Assembly (NCBI GenBank): GCA_937960645.1
Contig: CALGPJ010000006.1
Location: forward strand, 210,868-253,243
DNA from: an uncultured Spirochaetia bacterium
GTDB taxonomy: Bacteria; Spirochaetota; Spirochaetia; JABEVK01
Reading direction: 5' to 3'
Length of the DNA stretch: 42,376 nt
The notes under the pieces were generated by a model that did no database searches, had not been told where the DNA came from, and worked only from the letters and a program-made list of their open reading frames with translations. The position numbers and the translations under genes are program-made. Shown here piece after piece: positions 18,338-25,610 of this stretch. Positions within the stretch are counted from its first letter, which is position 1. Each line of letters begins with the position of its first letter.

Positions 18338-19741
18338 ATGGACCTCACCTCAACAATTCTCCAAAAAACAGCTCGCGAGAAACTCGGCGTTCCCCATCTC
18401 TACGACTACCAGGAACGAACCATTCTCGATATCGTCAACCGGCCGCACCATCGTCTGGTGCTCTTTCCGACGGGAGCGGGAAAAAGTCTGATCTTCACCC
18501 TGCCGGCTTTTTTCCTCGAGGGTTTGACCGTCATCGTCTATCCCCTCCTGGCCCTGATGGACGACCAAAAACGACGCTTCAGCCAAGCCGGTTTGGACAG
18601 TGTGGTGTTGCGGGGCGGCCAAACACGGGAACAGAGGAACCAGGTTTGGGAAAAACTGTCGGCTCCCCGGCCTCCCATTTTGATTACCAACCCCGAAATG
18701 CTCCTGCAGCCCCAGGTGTTTCGGCAGTTGGAGAAACTTCGAATCGGCCACCTGGTATTTGACGAGGCCCATTGTATCAGTCAGTGGGGCCGAACCTTTC
18801 GCGAGGCGTACTGGAATTGCGCCCGGAGGGCCCTCGACTTAAATCCCGAAAGGCTCACCGCCCTGACGGCAACGGCGGATGCCAAAATCGAGGAGGACCT
18901 TTCTGTTCATTTGTTCCGAGAACAGGACTACGAACGCATCGCCCGTGTTCCAGACCGACCAAACATCCATTACGAGGTGTGGCGGGGTCTTTCGCGATCT
19001 GTCTTGCTCCACCAAGCCCTACTCGAATCGCAGCGCCCCTTGATCGTGTTCGTGTCCAGCAGGATGGGAACGGTCCAGGTCGCTCGCCTGGCCGCCCGTA
19101 CCCTCGATCCTTCTCGTATTCGCCTCTACCACGCCGGACTGGAAAAACAGGAAAAACATCGAACCGAAAGCTGGTTTTTCGAATCCCACGACGGGGTCCT
19201 GGTGACCACCTGCGCCTATGGCATGGGCGTGGACAAGTCCAATGTCCGAACAGTGGTACACTGGGATCCCAGCGAATCGGTGGTCGCCTACCTTCAGGAG
19301 AGCGGCCGGGCCGGTCGGGATGGTCAACAATCGCGGTCCATCCTCCTGGTTGGACCCGATTCGCGTTTTCGCAGCGAGAGGGACAAACAGTTGGCCTTCG
19401 ACGACACGTCCTGTCGTCGAGCCAGCCTGCTGAAAGAGCTGGGCCCCTGGGAGGTGCCCTGCAAGGGCTGCGATGTTTGCGCCGGCAATCGGCGGAGGGA
19501 CCCTGTTTCCATCGATTTTCACAATATTTTTGAAACCCAAACACACAGGCATCGTCACCCGACGAGCATCCTGAAACAACTATGGGGACGCGCTCAACCC
19601 GAAAGCACCCACCAGAAGCTCCACCTCAGCACCCTCTGGGCCAACATGCCCCTCGATTTGGAAGACCTGGAGGATTTGAAAAATAACTGGCAGGAAGCCC
19701 TTGATCGCGGGATATTATCTGACTATATTTGTCGGGTATAG
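18338..19741 (+). CDS. Compact RecQ-like ATP-dependent DNA helicase
   Basis: A 467-residue superfamily 2 helicase of the RecQ group. Motif I is FPTGAGKSLIF, motif II DEAH in LVFDEAHCISQWG, motif III TALTATA and motif VI QESGRAGRDGQ. The RecQ zinc-binding subdomain is intact: Cys in DDTSCRRASLL, then PCKGCDVC. E. coli RecQ (about 610 residues) continues with winged-helix RQC and HRDC domains; here only about 80 residues follow the zinc module, with no recognisable RQC or HRDC fold. It may be a short RecQ-like enzyme with altered substrate choice. A TATAAG lies just before the ATG. Its stop codon overlaps the putative IscR-type operator of the suf operon. Confidence 0.85.
   Translation: MDLTSTILQKTAREKLGVPHLYDYQERTILDIVNRPHHRLVLFPTGAGKSLIFTLPAFFLEGLTVIVYPLLALMDDQKRRFSQAGLDSVVLRGGQTREQRNQVWEKLSAPRPPILITNPEMLLQPQVFRQLEKLRIGHLVFDEAHCISQWGRTFREAYWNCARRALDLNPERLTALTATADAKIEEDLSVHLFREQDYERIARVPDRPNIHYEVWRGLSRSVLLHQALLESQRPLIVFVSSRMGTVQVARLAARTLDPSRIRLYHAGLEKQEKHRTESWFFESHDGVLVTTCAYGMGVDKSNVRTVVHWDPSESVVAYLQESGRAGRDGQQSRSILLVGPDSRFRSERDKQLAFDDTSCRRASLLKELGPWEVPCKGCDVCAGNRRRDPVSIDFHNIFETQTHRHRHPTSILKQLWGRAQPESTHQKLHLSTLWANMPLDLEDLEDLKNNWQEALDRGILSDYICRV
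19701..19729 (+). promoter_or_regulatory. Promoter of the suf operon
   Basis: TTGATC (19701-19706), a 17-base spacer and TATATT (19724-19729, five of six) lie within the end of the recQ-like gene. The predicted start near 19736 gives a leader of about 14 bases that still includes GGAGG. Confidence 0.65.
19715..19739 (+). promoter_or_regulatory. Putative type-1 IscR/Rrf2-family operator of the suf operon
   Basis: A 25-base imperfect palindrome with half-sites TATCTGACTA and TTGTCGGGTAT covers the -10 box. Compared with the published type-1 IscR consensus (GACT/AGTC cores in an ATA...TAT frame, recalled from memory), I count agreement at 22 of 25 positions. Cluster-bound IscR represses at such sites and apo-IscR releases them, which would switch on Fe-S assembly on demand. 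No Rrf2-family gene is in the window. Confidence 0.6.
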
Positions 19742-19749
19742 GAGGTCCC

Positions 19750-20052
19750 GTGTACACGCAGGATCAGTTGATCGACTTCCTCCGGGATGTCGTTGACCCA
19801 GATCTGGGGTTTCCGATTGTCGATCTCGGCCTCGTTTATCGTGCCGAGGACAAGGGCGAGTGGGTCGAGGTAGATTTTACTCTAACCTCTCCCGCGTGTC
19901 CGGTGGGTGACTTGATTTTGGAAGACATCAAGGCAGCCATTACCAACGCCACCGGTATCGAAGATGTCAGGGCGCAGATCGTATGGAATCCGCCCTGGGA
20001 TAAGGACATGATGAGCGAAGAAATGAAGCTCATGCTCGGCATCCCCATTTAG
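19750..20052 (+). CDS. sufT: SufT-like MIP18/DUF59 iron-sulfur cluster assembly factor
   Basis: A 100-residue MIP18 (DUF59) protein, an auxiliary factor in Fe-S cluster assembly or delivery. The family core is visible: LRDVVDPDLGFPIVDLGLVY, then the conserved Cys in TLTSPACPVGD, then VWNPPWDKDMMSEEMKLMLG. The start is GTG 19750, with GGAGG four bases upstream; an upstream in-frame TTG would lie inside the operator. It is the first gene of the suf operon, ahead of sufC, which supports the role. Confidence 0.85.
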   Translation: MYTQDQLIDFLRDVVDPDLGFPIVDLGLVYRAEDKGEWVEVDFTLTSPACPVGDLILEDIKAAITNATGIEDVRAQIVWNPPWDKDMMSEEMKLMLGIPI

Positions 20053-20066
20053 AAAAAGGAATGACT

Positions 20067-20843
20067 ATGACCGTATTGCGCATCGAAAACCTTAAGGCCG
20101 AAATCGAAGGCAAGCCCATCCTCCGAGGTATCGACCTGGAAATTAAGACCGGAGAAATCGCCGCCTTGATGGGTCCTAATGGATCGGGCAAAAGTACCCT
20201 GGCCCACATCCTGATGGGGCATCCTCGGTACACCGTAACAGAGGGGGGTGTTTTCTGGAATGATGTGAATCTTCTTGAACTCGAGGTGCACGAGAGGGCA
20301 AGGTTGGGTCTGTTTTTGGCCTTTCAATACCCGGTTGAAATCCCCGGTGTCACCGTCGGCAAGTTTCTAAAACGCGCCCTCGAGGTCAAGCTCGAAGCCA
20401 AAGGCGAAAAACTGAATGTTTCTCAATACATCAAGCAGCTGCGGTCCGACATCGACTTTCTGGAAATGGATCAAAACTTCATCAATCGCTACCTCAACGA
20501 GGGTTTCAGTGGGGGTGAAAAAAAGAGAATGGAAATTCTTCAACTCCTCACCCTGCAGCCCCAGATCGCCGTGTTCGACGAAACCGATTCCGGACTGGAT
20601 ATCGATGCCCTGAGGTTGGTGAGCAAGGGAATCAATCGCATGCGCGGTCCGGATTTTGGCGGTCTCATCATCACCCATTATCAACGAATTCTCAACTATG
20701 TCCGTCCTGACGTGGTCCACATCATGTACAAGGGAAAGATCGTGACCTCAGGCAGGGAGGATCTGGTGCAGACCCTGGAAGAGAAGGGCTACGATTGGGT
20801 CAAGGCCCGTTATGGCATCGAGGAGGTTGCAGATGTCGGCTGA
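20067..20843 (+). CDS. sufC: SufC, ATPase of the SufBCD scaffold
   Basis: A 258-residue ABC-type ATPase that drives the SufBC2D complex, in the cytoplasm. Walker A is GPNGSGKST, the Q-loop lies in [12 protein letters not shown], the signature is [12 protein letters not shown] and Walker B with the catalytic Glu reads [16 protein letters not shown], typical of SufC. Two ATGs lie six bases apart. The second (20067) stands at proper distance from AGGA, while the first is directly abutted by it, so I use the second. The end overlaps sufB by 11 bases. Confidence 0.95.
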
Positions 20844-22242
20844 AGCGAATACCCCGGAATTTGACATTGGGGATTATAAATACGGTTTTCACTTTCCGGA
20901 AAGGGCGGTTGTCAAGACCCAAAAGGGACTCAACGAGGATGTCGTCCGCCAGATCAGTGCGAGCAAGGAGGAGCCCGATTGGATGCTCGATTTCCGGCTC
21001 AAGAGCCTGGAAGCCTTTCGACGGCTGCCGATGCCCAACTGGGGGGCCGATCTGAGCGGCATCAACTTCGACGATATCTACTATTACATCAAGCCCACGG
21101 AATCGGTGGAACGTAGCTGGGATGATGTCCCGGATGACATCAAAAAAACCTTCGACCGGATCGGTATCCCCGAGGCCGAACGAAAGTTTCTTGCCGGTGT
21201 CGGCGCCCAGTACGATTCCGAGATGGTCTACCACAACATCCGTGAGGACCTGAAAAAAATGGGGGTGGTCTTCACCGACCCGGAAACAGGGGTCCGTGAA
21301 CATCCGGAAATCATCAAAAAATACTTCGGAACGGTCATTCCGTATAACGACAACAAGTTTGCGGCTCTCAACTCAGCGGTATGGAGCGGCGGCAGCTTCG
21401 TTTACGTGCCGCCTGGCGTCCATGTCGACATCCCCGTCCAGGCGTATTTCCGGATCAATTCCAAGAACTTTGGACAGTTCGAACGGACCCTGATCGTTGC
21501 CGACGAGGGCAGCTTCGTTCACTACATTGAAGGCTGTACCGCCCCGACCTACTCATCGGAATCCCTTCACTCTGCCGTGGTGGAGATCATCGCCCTACCC
21601 GGAGCACGGGTCCGCTACTCGACCATTCAAAACTGGGCCACCAACATTTATAACCTCGTGACCAAACGAGCCCACGCCCACGCTGGGGCCACCGTGGAAT
21701 GGGTGGACGGCAATTTGGGAAGCAAGAGGACCATGAAGTACCCCTCGGTCTTTCTGCTTGGTGAAAGAGCCCACGGCGAGGTATTGAGCATTGCCTTTGC
21801 CGGCAAGGGCCAGGAGCAGGACACCGGAGGCAAGATGATCCACAACGCCCCCAACACGACCAGCGTCATCACTTCCAAATCCATCAGCAAGGGAGGCGGT
21901 ACGAGCAGTTACCGTGGGATGGTCAAGGTGGCACCGGGTTTGAGCGGCATCAAAAGCAAGGTGGAATGCGATGCTCTCATCATCGATGAAGAGAGCGTGA
22001 GCAACACCTACCCCTACATGGAAATCGCCTCCGAGAACGTGAGCATCGAGCACGAAGCAAAGGTCAGCAAGATCAGCGAAGATCAGCTACTCTACCTCAT
22101 GAGTCGCGGTATCGACGAGGAGGAGGCCAGCATGATGATCGTCAACGGTTTCATCGATCCGCTGGTGAAACAGCTCCCGATGGAATACGCCATTGAGCTC
22201 AACCGCCTGATTGAGTTGGAAATGGAGGGGTCGGTAGGGTGA
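20833..22242 (+). CDS. sufB: SufB, Fe-S cluster scaffold subunit
   Basis: A 469-residue scaffold protein on which sulfide and iron are assembled together with SufC and SufD. The beta-helix core is recognisable by [38 protein letters not shown] and the near-terminal [20 protein letters not shown]. The conserved Cys/Glu region ([13 protein letters not shown]) is present. The ATG has AGGAGG six bases upstream, inside the sufC end. It overlaps sufD by four bases (GTGA), implying coupled translation. Length is typical. Confidence 0.95.
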
Positions 22243-23447
22243 GTCCCGTAACACAAACACGTCCCGCCTGGACCCAAGAGCTGCGCGAAAATTCCCTCCA
22301 AAAAATTCAACACCAGGGATGGCCAACCAAAAAGGACGAGGAATGGCGGCGAACCCTGATGAGCCGTCTGCCCTGGGATCACTTCCAGCCGGCGCAGCCC
22401 ACCCCATTCATCGCCGGAGGAACCCCCGACGGGGACTATTCGGCGATTGCAAAAATCAACGACATCGACGGCCTGTCCTTCGCCTCTCTCACGGAAAAGG
22501 TTCGCTTACGCTGGCTGGAGGAATCCGATCGGCCTCGATGGGAAAAACTCCTGGACAGGGTTGAGGACAGATTTTTCTGGGAACAGCTCGGTGATAGCGA
22601 AGAGACCCTCGCCCTCGATATCTCCCAGGGGGCCGTCCTGGAAAAGCCCATTCTTTTTCATTGGAACCAATTGGAAAAGCTCCATCAGCGCCGCTCGCCC
22701 CGACTCCAAATCCAGGCGCATCCCGGGTCGATTGCGGAAATGGTCATCAAGCTCGATTCCCGGGTTGGGGTATTCCTTAACTCCGTGTTGAATATTTCTG
22801 TCGGTGAAGGATCGGTGTTCAAACTCACCCTGATTCAGGCCCTTTCCGAGGAGAGCTACTGGATCGACCACAGTTACGCCGAGCAAGCTCGAGGTTCCAG
22901 CTTCCACTTTACCCTGATTAACCTGGGTGCCGACACGACCAAAACCAAGTTTGTCGATTCCATCAAAGGAGACCACGCCGAGTTTCAGGCCAAGGGTATC
23001 TACCTCTGCCACGGCAAGCAACACAAGGACATGCGCCTGGTGCAACATCATCAGGCACCGGAAAGTCTGTCGAACGCCCTGTTCAAGGGGGCCGTCAGGG
23101 ACAGGGGTCGAAGTGTGTTCCAGGGTCTGATCGAAGTCGACAAGGAAGGGCACAAAACAGACGCCTACCTCTCCAATAAAAACCTCGTCCTCAACGATGG
23201 CGCCCGAGCCGACAGCCTCCCCCAGCTCAAAATCGACCACAACGACCTGCGGTGCACCCATGGCAGTACCACGGGTATGGTCGATCCGGAACAGGTCCAC
23301 TACCTTCAGACCCGAGGGCTGAGCGACCGTGAGGCAAAAGTTTTGATTTCCCTGGGACTGTTCCAGGAGATCATCGATTCCTTGCCTGCTTCCCTGCGTC
23401 TCCCCATCGAGGGTCAGGTCGAGACCTTGCTCCGATCCGATGCTTGA
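22239..23447 (+). CDS. sufD: SufD, Fe-S cluster scaffold subunit
   Basis: A 402-residue SufD-type partner of SufB. The family C-terminal half is clear: [19 protein letters not shown], then [21 protein letters not shown] and the [19 protein letters not shown] helix. The N-terminal half is divergent, as usual for SufD. The GTG start shares four bases with the sufB stop. The end overlaps sufS by eight bases. It probably supplies the His/Cys side of the SufB-SufD interface where the cluster forms. Confidence 0.93.
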
Positions 23448-24660
23448 CCCCCACAAGTTCCGCCAGGATTTTCCCATCCTTGATCAGCGCCTGGGCCCCA
23501 GTCGTGATCGAAAGCTCGTTTACCTGGACAACGCCGCCACTACTCAAAAACCCCTGTCCGTGATCGAGGCGATCACCCATTACTACCGGGAGAGCAATTC
23601 CAACGTCCACCGAGGCATACACACCCTGGGCGAACGGGCTACAGCCCTCTACGAGGACGCGCGCAACAAGGTGCGGTCGTTCATCATGGCGAGACACAGC
23701 CACGAAATCATTTTTACACGCGGAACTACCGAGAGCATCAATCTGGTCGCTTCCAGTCTGACCCGTCTTTTCCAGCCAGGGGACGAGATCGTGCTGACCG
23801 AAATGGAGCATCACTCCAACATGGTCCCCTGGTTCCTGGCAGCCGAACGCCAGAATCTGGTTATCAGGATCTGGCACGTCGAAGACGACGGACAACTCGA
23901 CATCGGAAAGCTGAACGATCTTTTGGGTCCGAAGACGCGCCTCCTGGCGCTGACCTGGATGAGCAACGTTTTGGGAACGATCAATCCCATCAAGAAAATC
24001 ACCCAAATCGCCCACGACAAGGGGGTGAACGTGCTGGTTGACGGGGCTCAGGGGGTCCCCCACCTACCCACGGACGTCCAGGACCTCGATGTGGACTTTT
24101 TAGCCTTTTCCGGCCACAAGATGTGCGGTCCCATGGGGATAGGGGTTCTCTATGGCAAGGAAGACCTTTTGGATCGGATGCCGCCATACCAGGGCGGGGG
24201 CGAAATGATCCGTACCGTACGGTTGGACGGCTTCGAACCCAACGTCCTGCCGTACAAGTTCGAGGCGGGGACCCCCAATGTAGAGGGAGCGGTCGGGCTG
24301 GGGGTAGCCGTGGATTACCTGCGATCGATCGGTCTTGAAAACATTCATGCCCATGACGAGCTTTTGGTTCAAAAAACCCTCGAGGGTCTGAAAGCTCTGC
24401 CCTCTGTTCGGGTGCTGGGTCCGAAAAGCGGCCGCGGCGGACTGGCCGCCTTCAGTGCCGGCTCGCTCCATGCCCACGACGTTGCCGCCTACCTGGACCG
24501 CTTCGGAGTGGCGGTCAGGGCCGGCCACCACTGCGCCCACCCCCTGGCCAAACGCTTCGGGGTTGTCAGCACCGTTCGCGCCAGTTATTATTTTTACAAC
24601 ACCCTGGAAGAGGTTGACCAGTTTTTGGAAACCCTTGGTCGGGCCCTCGATGACCTATGA
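23440..24660 (+). CDS. sufS: SufS, class II cysteine desulfurase
   Basis: A 406-residue pyridoxal-phosphate enzyme that removes sulfur from L-cysteine as a persulfide for Fe-S assembly. It shows YLDNAATTQKP at the start, TRGTTESINLVA, the PLP-binding Lys in AFSGHKMCGPMGIGVLYG and the active-site Cys in VRAGHHCAHPLAKRFG, typical of SufS (class II). It overlaps sufD by eight bases and sufU by four (ATGA). With SufU next to it, the Zn-dependent SufS-SufU sulfur relay is expected rather than SufE. Confidence 0.95.
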   Translation: MLDPHKFRQDFPILDQRLGPSRDRKLVYLDNAATTQKPLSVIEAITHYYRESNSNVHRGIHTLGERATALYEDARNKVRSFIMARHSHEIIFTRGTTESINLVASSLTRLFQPGDEIVLTEMEHHSNMVPWFLAAERQNLVIRIWHVEDDGQLDIGKLNDLLGPKTRLLALTWMSNVLGTINPIKKITQIAHDKGVNVLVDGAQGVPHLPTDVQDLDVDFLAFSGHKMCGPMGIGVLYGKEDLLDRMPPYQGGGEMIRTVRLDGFEPNVLPYKFEAGTPNVEGAVGLGVAVDYLRSIGLENIHAHDELLVQKTLEGLKALPSVRVLGPKSGRGGLAAFSAGSLHAHDVAAYLDRFGVAVRAGHHCAHPLAKRFGVVSTVRASYYFYNTLEEVDQFLETLGRALDDL

Positions 24661-25088
24661 GCGATCAGTTCAACGAGCTTTTTCAGGAAATTATCCGAGA
24701 CCATTTTAAGCACCCAGCCTATCGCGCCATTCTCCATCCTGACGCGCCGGTGTTTGAAAATCCCAGCTGCGGTGACCAGGTGAAACTTCAAATAACGCTT
24801 CAGGGAAACACCATCGAAAGCTGCCGATTCGAGGGGGCGGGATGCTCCATCTCCATGGCCAGCGCCGACATGATGTGTGGCCTTTTGGAAAACAAGTCCA
24901 TTCCGGAAGCTCAAACCATCATCGAAGAGTTTCTCCAGGTGATGCGCGGGGAACTACCCAGCTCTGCACTGGAGAAATACGGGGACATCCAGTCCCTGGG
25001 GGGCGTTGCCCAACTGCCTGTCCGGGTAAAATGCGCCACGCTGGCCTGGAATGCCGCAAAATCGATTATTTTTAAAAAAAATACTTGA
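24657..25088 (+). CDS. sufU: SufU, zinc-dependent sulfurtransferase partner of SufS
   Basis: A 143-residue IscU-fold protein. The Zn ligands and acceptor cysteines of SufU are visible: NPSCGDQ (Cys and Asp), GAGCSISMASADMMCG and RVKCATLAWNA. SufU accepts persulfide from SufS and passes it to the SufBCD scaffold. It closes the sufTCBDSU run, and starts inside the sufS stop. A standalone IscU scaffold is less likely because the SufU-type insertion and SufBCD are both present. Confidence 0.93.
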   Translation: MSDQFNELFQEIIRDHFKHPAYRAILHPDAPVFENPSCGDQVKLQITLQGNTIESCRFEGAGCSISMASADMMCGLLENKSIPEAQTIIEEFLQVMRGELPSSALEKYGDIQSLGGVAQLPVRVKCATLAWNAAKSIIFKKNT

Positions 25089-25166: not shown

Positions 25167-25610
25167 ATGGGTCTAATTGACGGTATCGTGTTGGCAGTGT
25201 TGGGGATTCTTGCAATTCCCTCATTGATCGTCGCAAAGGCACCCAATGCTAAAACACTCATCGATAACCTTACTCCCTATCAGGGATACCTCGGGTTTGG
25301 GGCGGCTCTTTGGGGCATTTGGGGCATCATCAATTCGGTCTTAACTCTGTCCTGGCTGGCGACATGGCCACTATGGTGGGTCACCAATCTGGCGGGTAAC
25401 GTTTTTAACCTGCTTTTAGGTTTTATTCTCGGGTTCGGTCTCATTCAGCAATTCGCCTTGAGCAATGCCACTGCTGATGTCAAGGCTAAGGCCGAGGAAG
25501 CCAGAGCTAAACTGGTCGGTATGCAAGGAATGCTGGGCATCCTCGGTATTATCGTGGGTATTTGGGTGATCGTCTATAACCTGGTACTCTACAGAATCCT
25601 TAACATCTAA
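25167..25610 (+). CDS. Small four-helix inner-membrane protein of unknown function
   Basis: A 147-residue very hydrophobic protein with four probable membrane helices: GIVLAVLGILAIPSLIV, YLGFGAALWGIWGIINSVL, VTNLAGNVFNLLLGFILGFG and MLGILGIIVGIWVIVYNLVL. A short charged stretch (DVKAKAEEARAKLVG) lies between helices 3 and 4. I recognise no family. The start is well supported by AGGAGG eight bases upstream. It lies downstream of the suf operon and is followed by a strong terminator. A role linked to Fe-S metabolism is only suggested by position. Confidence 0.75.
   Translation: MGLIDGIVLAVLGILAIPSLIVAKAPNAKTLIDNLTPYQGYLGFGAALWGIWGIINSVLTLSWLATWPLWWVTNLAGNVFNLLLGFILGFGLIQQFALSNATADVKAKAEEARAKLVGMQGMLGILGIIVGIWVIVYNLVLYRILNI

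Follow-up and report, generated by a model that had tools for sequence, protein, structure and literature searches.

The E. coli regulator IscR acts in its holo form on type-1 sites (PMC8593673), 25-bp palindromes which cover the promoter of the Fe–S assembly operon iscRSUA, and contacts DNA through S40, E43, Q44 and R59 (PMC9338935). In M. xanthus, RisR, an Rrf2 protein of group IS6, represses both isc and suf via the operator TkGAC-N7-GTCCw lying over the -10 and -35 elements (PMC9973013), while IscR of Rhodobacter controls Fe–S assembly jointly with iron uptake (PMC4618611). Rrf2 control of suf outside the classical isc operons is thus already known from these two systems. An IscR-named Fe–S sensor outside the Proteobacteria is the Thermincola potens protein of Santos et al. 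2014, as far as it is presented in later papers (PMC9338935, PMC4618611). Regulation of suf in the absence of SufR has been called largely unknown in a review, where this is said of Gram-positives (PMC8593673), and in the open-licence literature we found no earlier description of IscR-type control in spirochaetes.

Here, we analysed a stretch of 42,376 nt (the window) from the 2.23-Mb genome of an uncultured Spirochaetia bacterium, in which an IscR-type operator had been predicted upstream of a suf operon. The host had been taken for a probable spirochaete, in agreement with the SufB relatives and contig matches, which lie within Spirochaetia. Profile searches returned six genes on the forward strand in the predicted order sufTCBDSU, namely sufT (19750–20052, GTG start, MIP18/SUF-associated family; TIGR02945 at 6e-25, below the curated cut-off), sufC (20061–20843; TIGR01978), sufB (20812–22242; TIGR01980), which may in fact start at a later ATG, sufD (22239–23447; TIGR01981, 213.5 bits vs a cut-off of 222), sufS (23440–24660; TIGR01979) and sufU (24657–25088; TIGR01994), with sufC, sufB, sufS and sufU scoring above their cut-offs. 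A Shine-Dalgarno sequence of sufT, AGGAGG, can be read at 19740–19745. Neither an IscU above cut-off nor an isc operon was seen in the genome. On the 3' side of sufU, positions 25167–25610 of the forward strand encode a hydrophobic protein of 147 aa with no Pfam or NCBIfam match. We additionally observed a suf operon with a SufB 84% identical to that of the window in DYOB01000001.1 (L006), a record titled Borreliella garinii, a name which is probably misassigned.

The operator itself is a 25-bp palindrome, TTATCTGACTATATTTGTCGGGTAT, at 19715–19739 of the forward strand, with the core CTGAC-N7-GTCGG. Sequence and coordinates had been given correctly in the original prediction, and our recount against the published type-1 IscR consensus ATASYYGACTRWWWYAGTCRRSTAT, as printed in papers on Pseudomonas aeruginosa IscR (PMC3899308, PMC6599224), reproduced the agreement at 22 of 25 positions. 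As a yardstick, the iscR promoter of E. coli K-12 contains two sites, which reach 24/25 and 22/25 on the same consensus. Allowing up to three mismatches, 19715–19739 is the sole match in the window, none of 100 dinucleotide shuffles of the window contained any, and a pattern scan of the whole genome returned only two such sites, with none for the reversed pattern. The promoter expected at this position was recovered by a promoter scan (9/12 with 17-bp spacing), comprising a -35 hexamer TTGATC at 19701–19706 and a -10 hexamer TATATT at 19724–19729, the latter coinciding with operator positions 10–15. The -10 box occupies the same operator register in four further genomes (G001, G003, G004 and G068).

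As had been noted from the start, the site overlaps the end of a helicase gene: the RecQ-family ORF (18338–19741, forward strand) stops at 19741, so that the operator lies within its last codons. This overlap could suggest that the palindrome arose by chance from an A/T-rich -10 box and the C-terminal codons of RecQ. In the sister species (G001), however, the same helicase gene stops 10 bases upstream of the palindrome TATTCTGACTAAATTAGTCGGAATT, which is kept before sufT together with a promoter TTGACC-17-TAAATT in the same register; the site is therefore not a by-product of helicase codons. Since the palindrome is in addition conserved across families in non-coding DNA, and next to no occurrences are expected by chance in the window or the genome, a chance origin is in effect already refuted by the conservation data, and we give it a negligible probability. 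Among the 98 nearest genomes, the window's own species included, 48 have a sufC match above threshold, and in the loci examined among them the suf operon begins with sufT. The anticipated conservation in close relatives was found in the sister species and in the family members G004 (ATACATGACTATGGTTGTCAGGTAT) and G003 (ATACCTGATTATGGTAATAAGGTAT), with degenerate forms in two other members of the family, G002 and G006; G082 likewise carries only a degenerate version. We consider 19715–19739 confirmed as a real, conserved type-1 IscR-like site on the suf promoter.

A symmetric expectation-maximisation search without any IscR input, performed on 25 non-redundant Spirochaetia sufT upstream regions, yielded the motif ATACCTkACTAAATTAGTmAGGTAT with a log-likelihood ratio of 141.6, compared to 33–45 for block-shuffled inputs. 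Applied to the E. coli isc region, the matrix built from all families ranked sites A and B of PiscR as the top two, at 22.3 and 17.0 bits. After training without the window's family, the window site still scored 21.5 bits, a value reached by 0 of 200 shuffles, and leave-one-family-out significance was obtained in eight other families (f6, f25, f26, f28, f31, f35 and f36, and more weakly f27). Two suf promoters outside the training set reached 25.8 bits (G027) and 18.6 bits (G047). Scores did not exceed 11.7 bits in four suf-bearing genomes which lack an IscR-like protein at E <= 1e-6 (G019, G029, G049 and G079), and four genomes possess such a protein with no site found before suf (G013, G018, G020 and G044). 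The motif thus tracks the IscR-like protein across genomes, although the association is not perfect. In the window's own genome, the other weak candidates of the de novo matrix remained at 10.3 bits at most.

Several further matches were seen during these scans. Searching the core pattern with two mismatches gave near-background counts and was set aside. The same applies to TGGACTATAATAGACAA, a recurrent match in four genomes of the family, which turned out to be an ordinary promoter (TTGACA/TATAAT) in front of an HTH gene. Single three-mismatch matches in distant genomes were distrusted, because outside the nearest genomes the reversed control returned comparable numbers. Type-1-like sites precede a gene of the dienelactone-hydrolase family in two genomes from different families (L163:1501-1525 in G004 and L086:514-538 in G020), which may represent a further target, and G035, a genome without sufC match, carries a 22/25 site (L088:1501-1525) directly upstream of a Fur-family gene. 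Perfect or near-perfect palindromes of the type AAATACGACYAGAAAAGTCGTATTT are located about 15–25 bases before an Rrf2 gene heading the suf operon (L203, reverse complement 264–288, and L204:587-611); they share the GAC-N7-GTC core, have other flanks, and probably belong to a second, autoregulated type of suf regulator.

A regulator gene could be identified in the same genome. Three Rrf2 proteins are encoded, one of which is IscR-like (G000:C7:48948-49373; L001:1495-1923) and provides the Rrf2-family protein with three cysteines that had been named as the component to look for, here C92, C102 and C108. Its assignment to the Rrf2 family follows from 118.1 bits against PF02082, with a Pfam gathering score of 30; the nearest solved relatives are IscR structures. 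The gene resides between acnA and lipA, both encoding Fe–S enzymes, rather than at the head of an isc operon, and a matrix scan upstream of it found no operator. The other two Rrf2 proteins are NsrR-like, encoded beside hcp, and CymR-like, the latter without cysteines in the sensor region. The NsrR-like gene and the nearby gene for an hcp-like hybrid-cluster protein (L002) would form a plausible nitric-oxide response pair.

The similarity of this protein to E. coli IscR is extensive at the DNA-contacting residues, with E43, Q44, R59 and the wing RGPGGGY retained in a gapless alignment, while S40 is replaced by E40 in the protein and its spirochaete relatives. In the cluster-binding region, the four cysteines C92, C95, C102 and C108 include a C92-X9-C102-X5-C108-X2-H111 arrangement, a C-X9-C-X5-C spacing unlike the C-X5-C-X5-C-X2-H of E. 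coli IscR. The cysteine triad is kept across the orthologues extracted; the histidine following the last cysteine is absent in the sister species. C92, C102 and C108 coincide exactly with the cluster ligands described for RisR of M. xanthus (PMC9973013), and the best NCBIfam match, TIGR02010 (IscR), reaches 124.7 bits against a curated cut-off of 207.55. Together with the class-wide tolerance of TTAC beside TGAC in the inner half-sites, these features would fit an operator bound by an Rrf2 protein of the RisR (IS6) or another Rrf2 subgroup, perhaps carrying a [4Fe-4S] cluster, with the likeness to type-1 sites being convergent. We regard this as a serious contender, if somewhat short of an even chance, since flanks of the form ATAcC...GgTAT as in the E. 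coli type-1 consensus, a motif that recovers the E. coli sites, and the wing RGPGGGY with E43/Q44 all speak for an IscR-like mode of recognition. Such an assignment refines the best explanation and is not its opposite. A tree with references of solved structure, which contained no RisR sequence, had too poor a resolution to place the spirochaete clade relative to E. coli IscR; in it, the Thermincola potens IscR, like the spirochaete protein an Rrf2 protein from outside the Proteobacteria, groups with CymR proteins and differs by its wing RGAQGGY.

The second of the two genomic sites, TTAACTGACTATTTTAGTCAGGTAT, agrees with the consensus at 23/25 positions and abuts a TTGACA box upstream of the operon G000:C41:5273-8839, which encodes an iron-binding protein, a permease and an ATPase; the binding protein matches ferric-iron-binding proteins of the PDB with E 2.9e-75. 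The sister species carries ATAACCGACTATTTTAGTCGGTTAT, a perfect palindrome except for the central bases, before the orthologous gene and next to the same TTGACA, and in G068 a one-mismatch site is located upstream of a siderophore-type binding protein and permease. An iron transporter is a classical Fur target and the genome encodes two Fur-family proteins, one DtxR-type protein and two Rrf2 proteins besides the IscR-like one, any of which could in principle bind the palindrome; a search of the genome for a cyanobacterial-type SufR was negative. However, the palindrome follows the pattern of IscR/RisR sites, with A/T flanks around a GAC-N7-GTC core, and the distribution of the motif across genomes follows that of the IscR-like protein, which renders binding by one of these other factors unlikely.

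We therefore propose that 19715–19739 is the predicted operator of the bacterium's own IscR-like Rrf2 repressor, exerting feedback on suf and on ferric-iron uptake, a reading to which we attach considerable confidence. By analogy with E. coli IscR and RisR, when clusters are plentiful a cluster on C92, C102 and C108 would allow the dimer to bind GAC-N7-GTC with its A/T flanks, covering the -10 box and blocking transcription of sufTCBDSU; upon shortage of iron or clusters, the cluster would be lost and the apo form would release the DNA. From the site beside the -35 element of the ferric-iron ABC transporter operon, the regulator would repress this operon as well. What the computations show is a conserved site, its position on the promoter, a candidate regulator and a second target; direct binding, cluster type and sign of regulation are transferred from the two described repressors. 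The originally proposed IscR-type feedback on a SufU-type suf operon was borne out with respect to site, regulator gene and conservation, and is qualified by two features of the regulator, a score below the IscR cut-off and a cysteine spacing like that of RisR. The GAC-N7-GTC core is common to other Rrf2 proteins, so that the operator by itself does not identify its binder.

In comparison to the described systems, the spirochaete arrangement resembles E. coli in having a 25-bp palindrome of the type-1 class which covers the promoter of an Fe–S assembly operon, but the target is SUF, no isc operon is seen, the regulator gene is unlinked and no autoregulatory site was found. With M. xanthus RisR it shares the C92/C102/C108 set and a GAC-N7-GTC operator on promoter elements of suf; CTGAC-N7-GTCGG fits the core of TkGAC-N7-GTCCw while differing in the outer base, and, in contrast to RisR, the flanks follow the type-1 consensus, no isc operon was seen and an iron transporter is added as target. 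The use of one Rrf2 Fe–S regulator for both Fe–S assembly and iron uptake is shared with Rhodobacter sphaeroides IscR (PMC4618611) and rhizobial RirA, although the operator differs from the Iron-Rhodo-box and Rhodobacter IscR relies on one cysteine and is encoded within the isc-suf operon.

New in this respect are the spirochaete case itself, a class-wide operator near the E. coli type-1 pattern and a small regulon of suf and ferric-iron genes. For a whole class of spirochaetes, this provides a concrete candidate regulator, an operator and a small regulon comprising suf and ferric-iron uptake. The spirochaete case also makes it possible to test directly if type-1 DNA recognition predates the isc system. 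Tentatively, and as a possibility rather than an expectation, type-1 recognition may be an old code shared across phyla, such that, in spirochaetes which have SUF and in which no isc operon was detected, an IscR/RisR-type protein ties Fe–S assembly to ferric-iron import through what is essentially the type-1 operator of E. coli. If this is true, the type-1 operator would be older than the isc operon, or would have been passed on independently of it.
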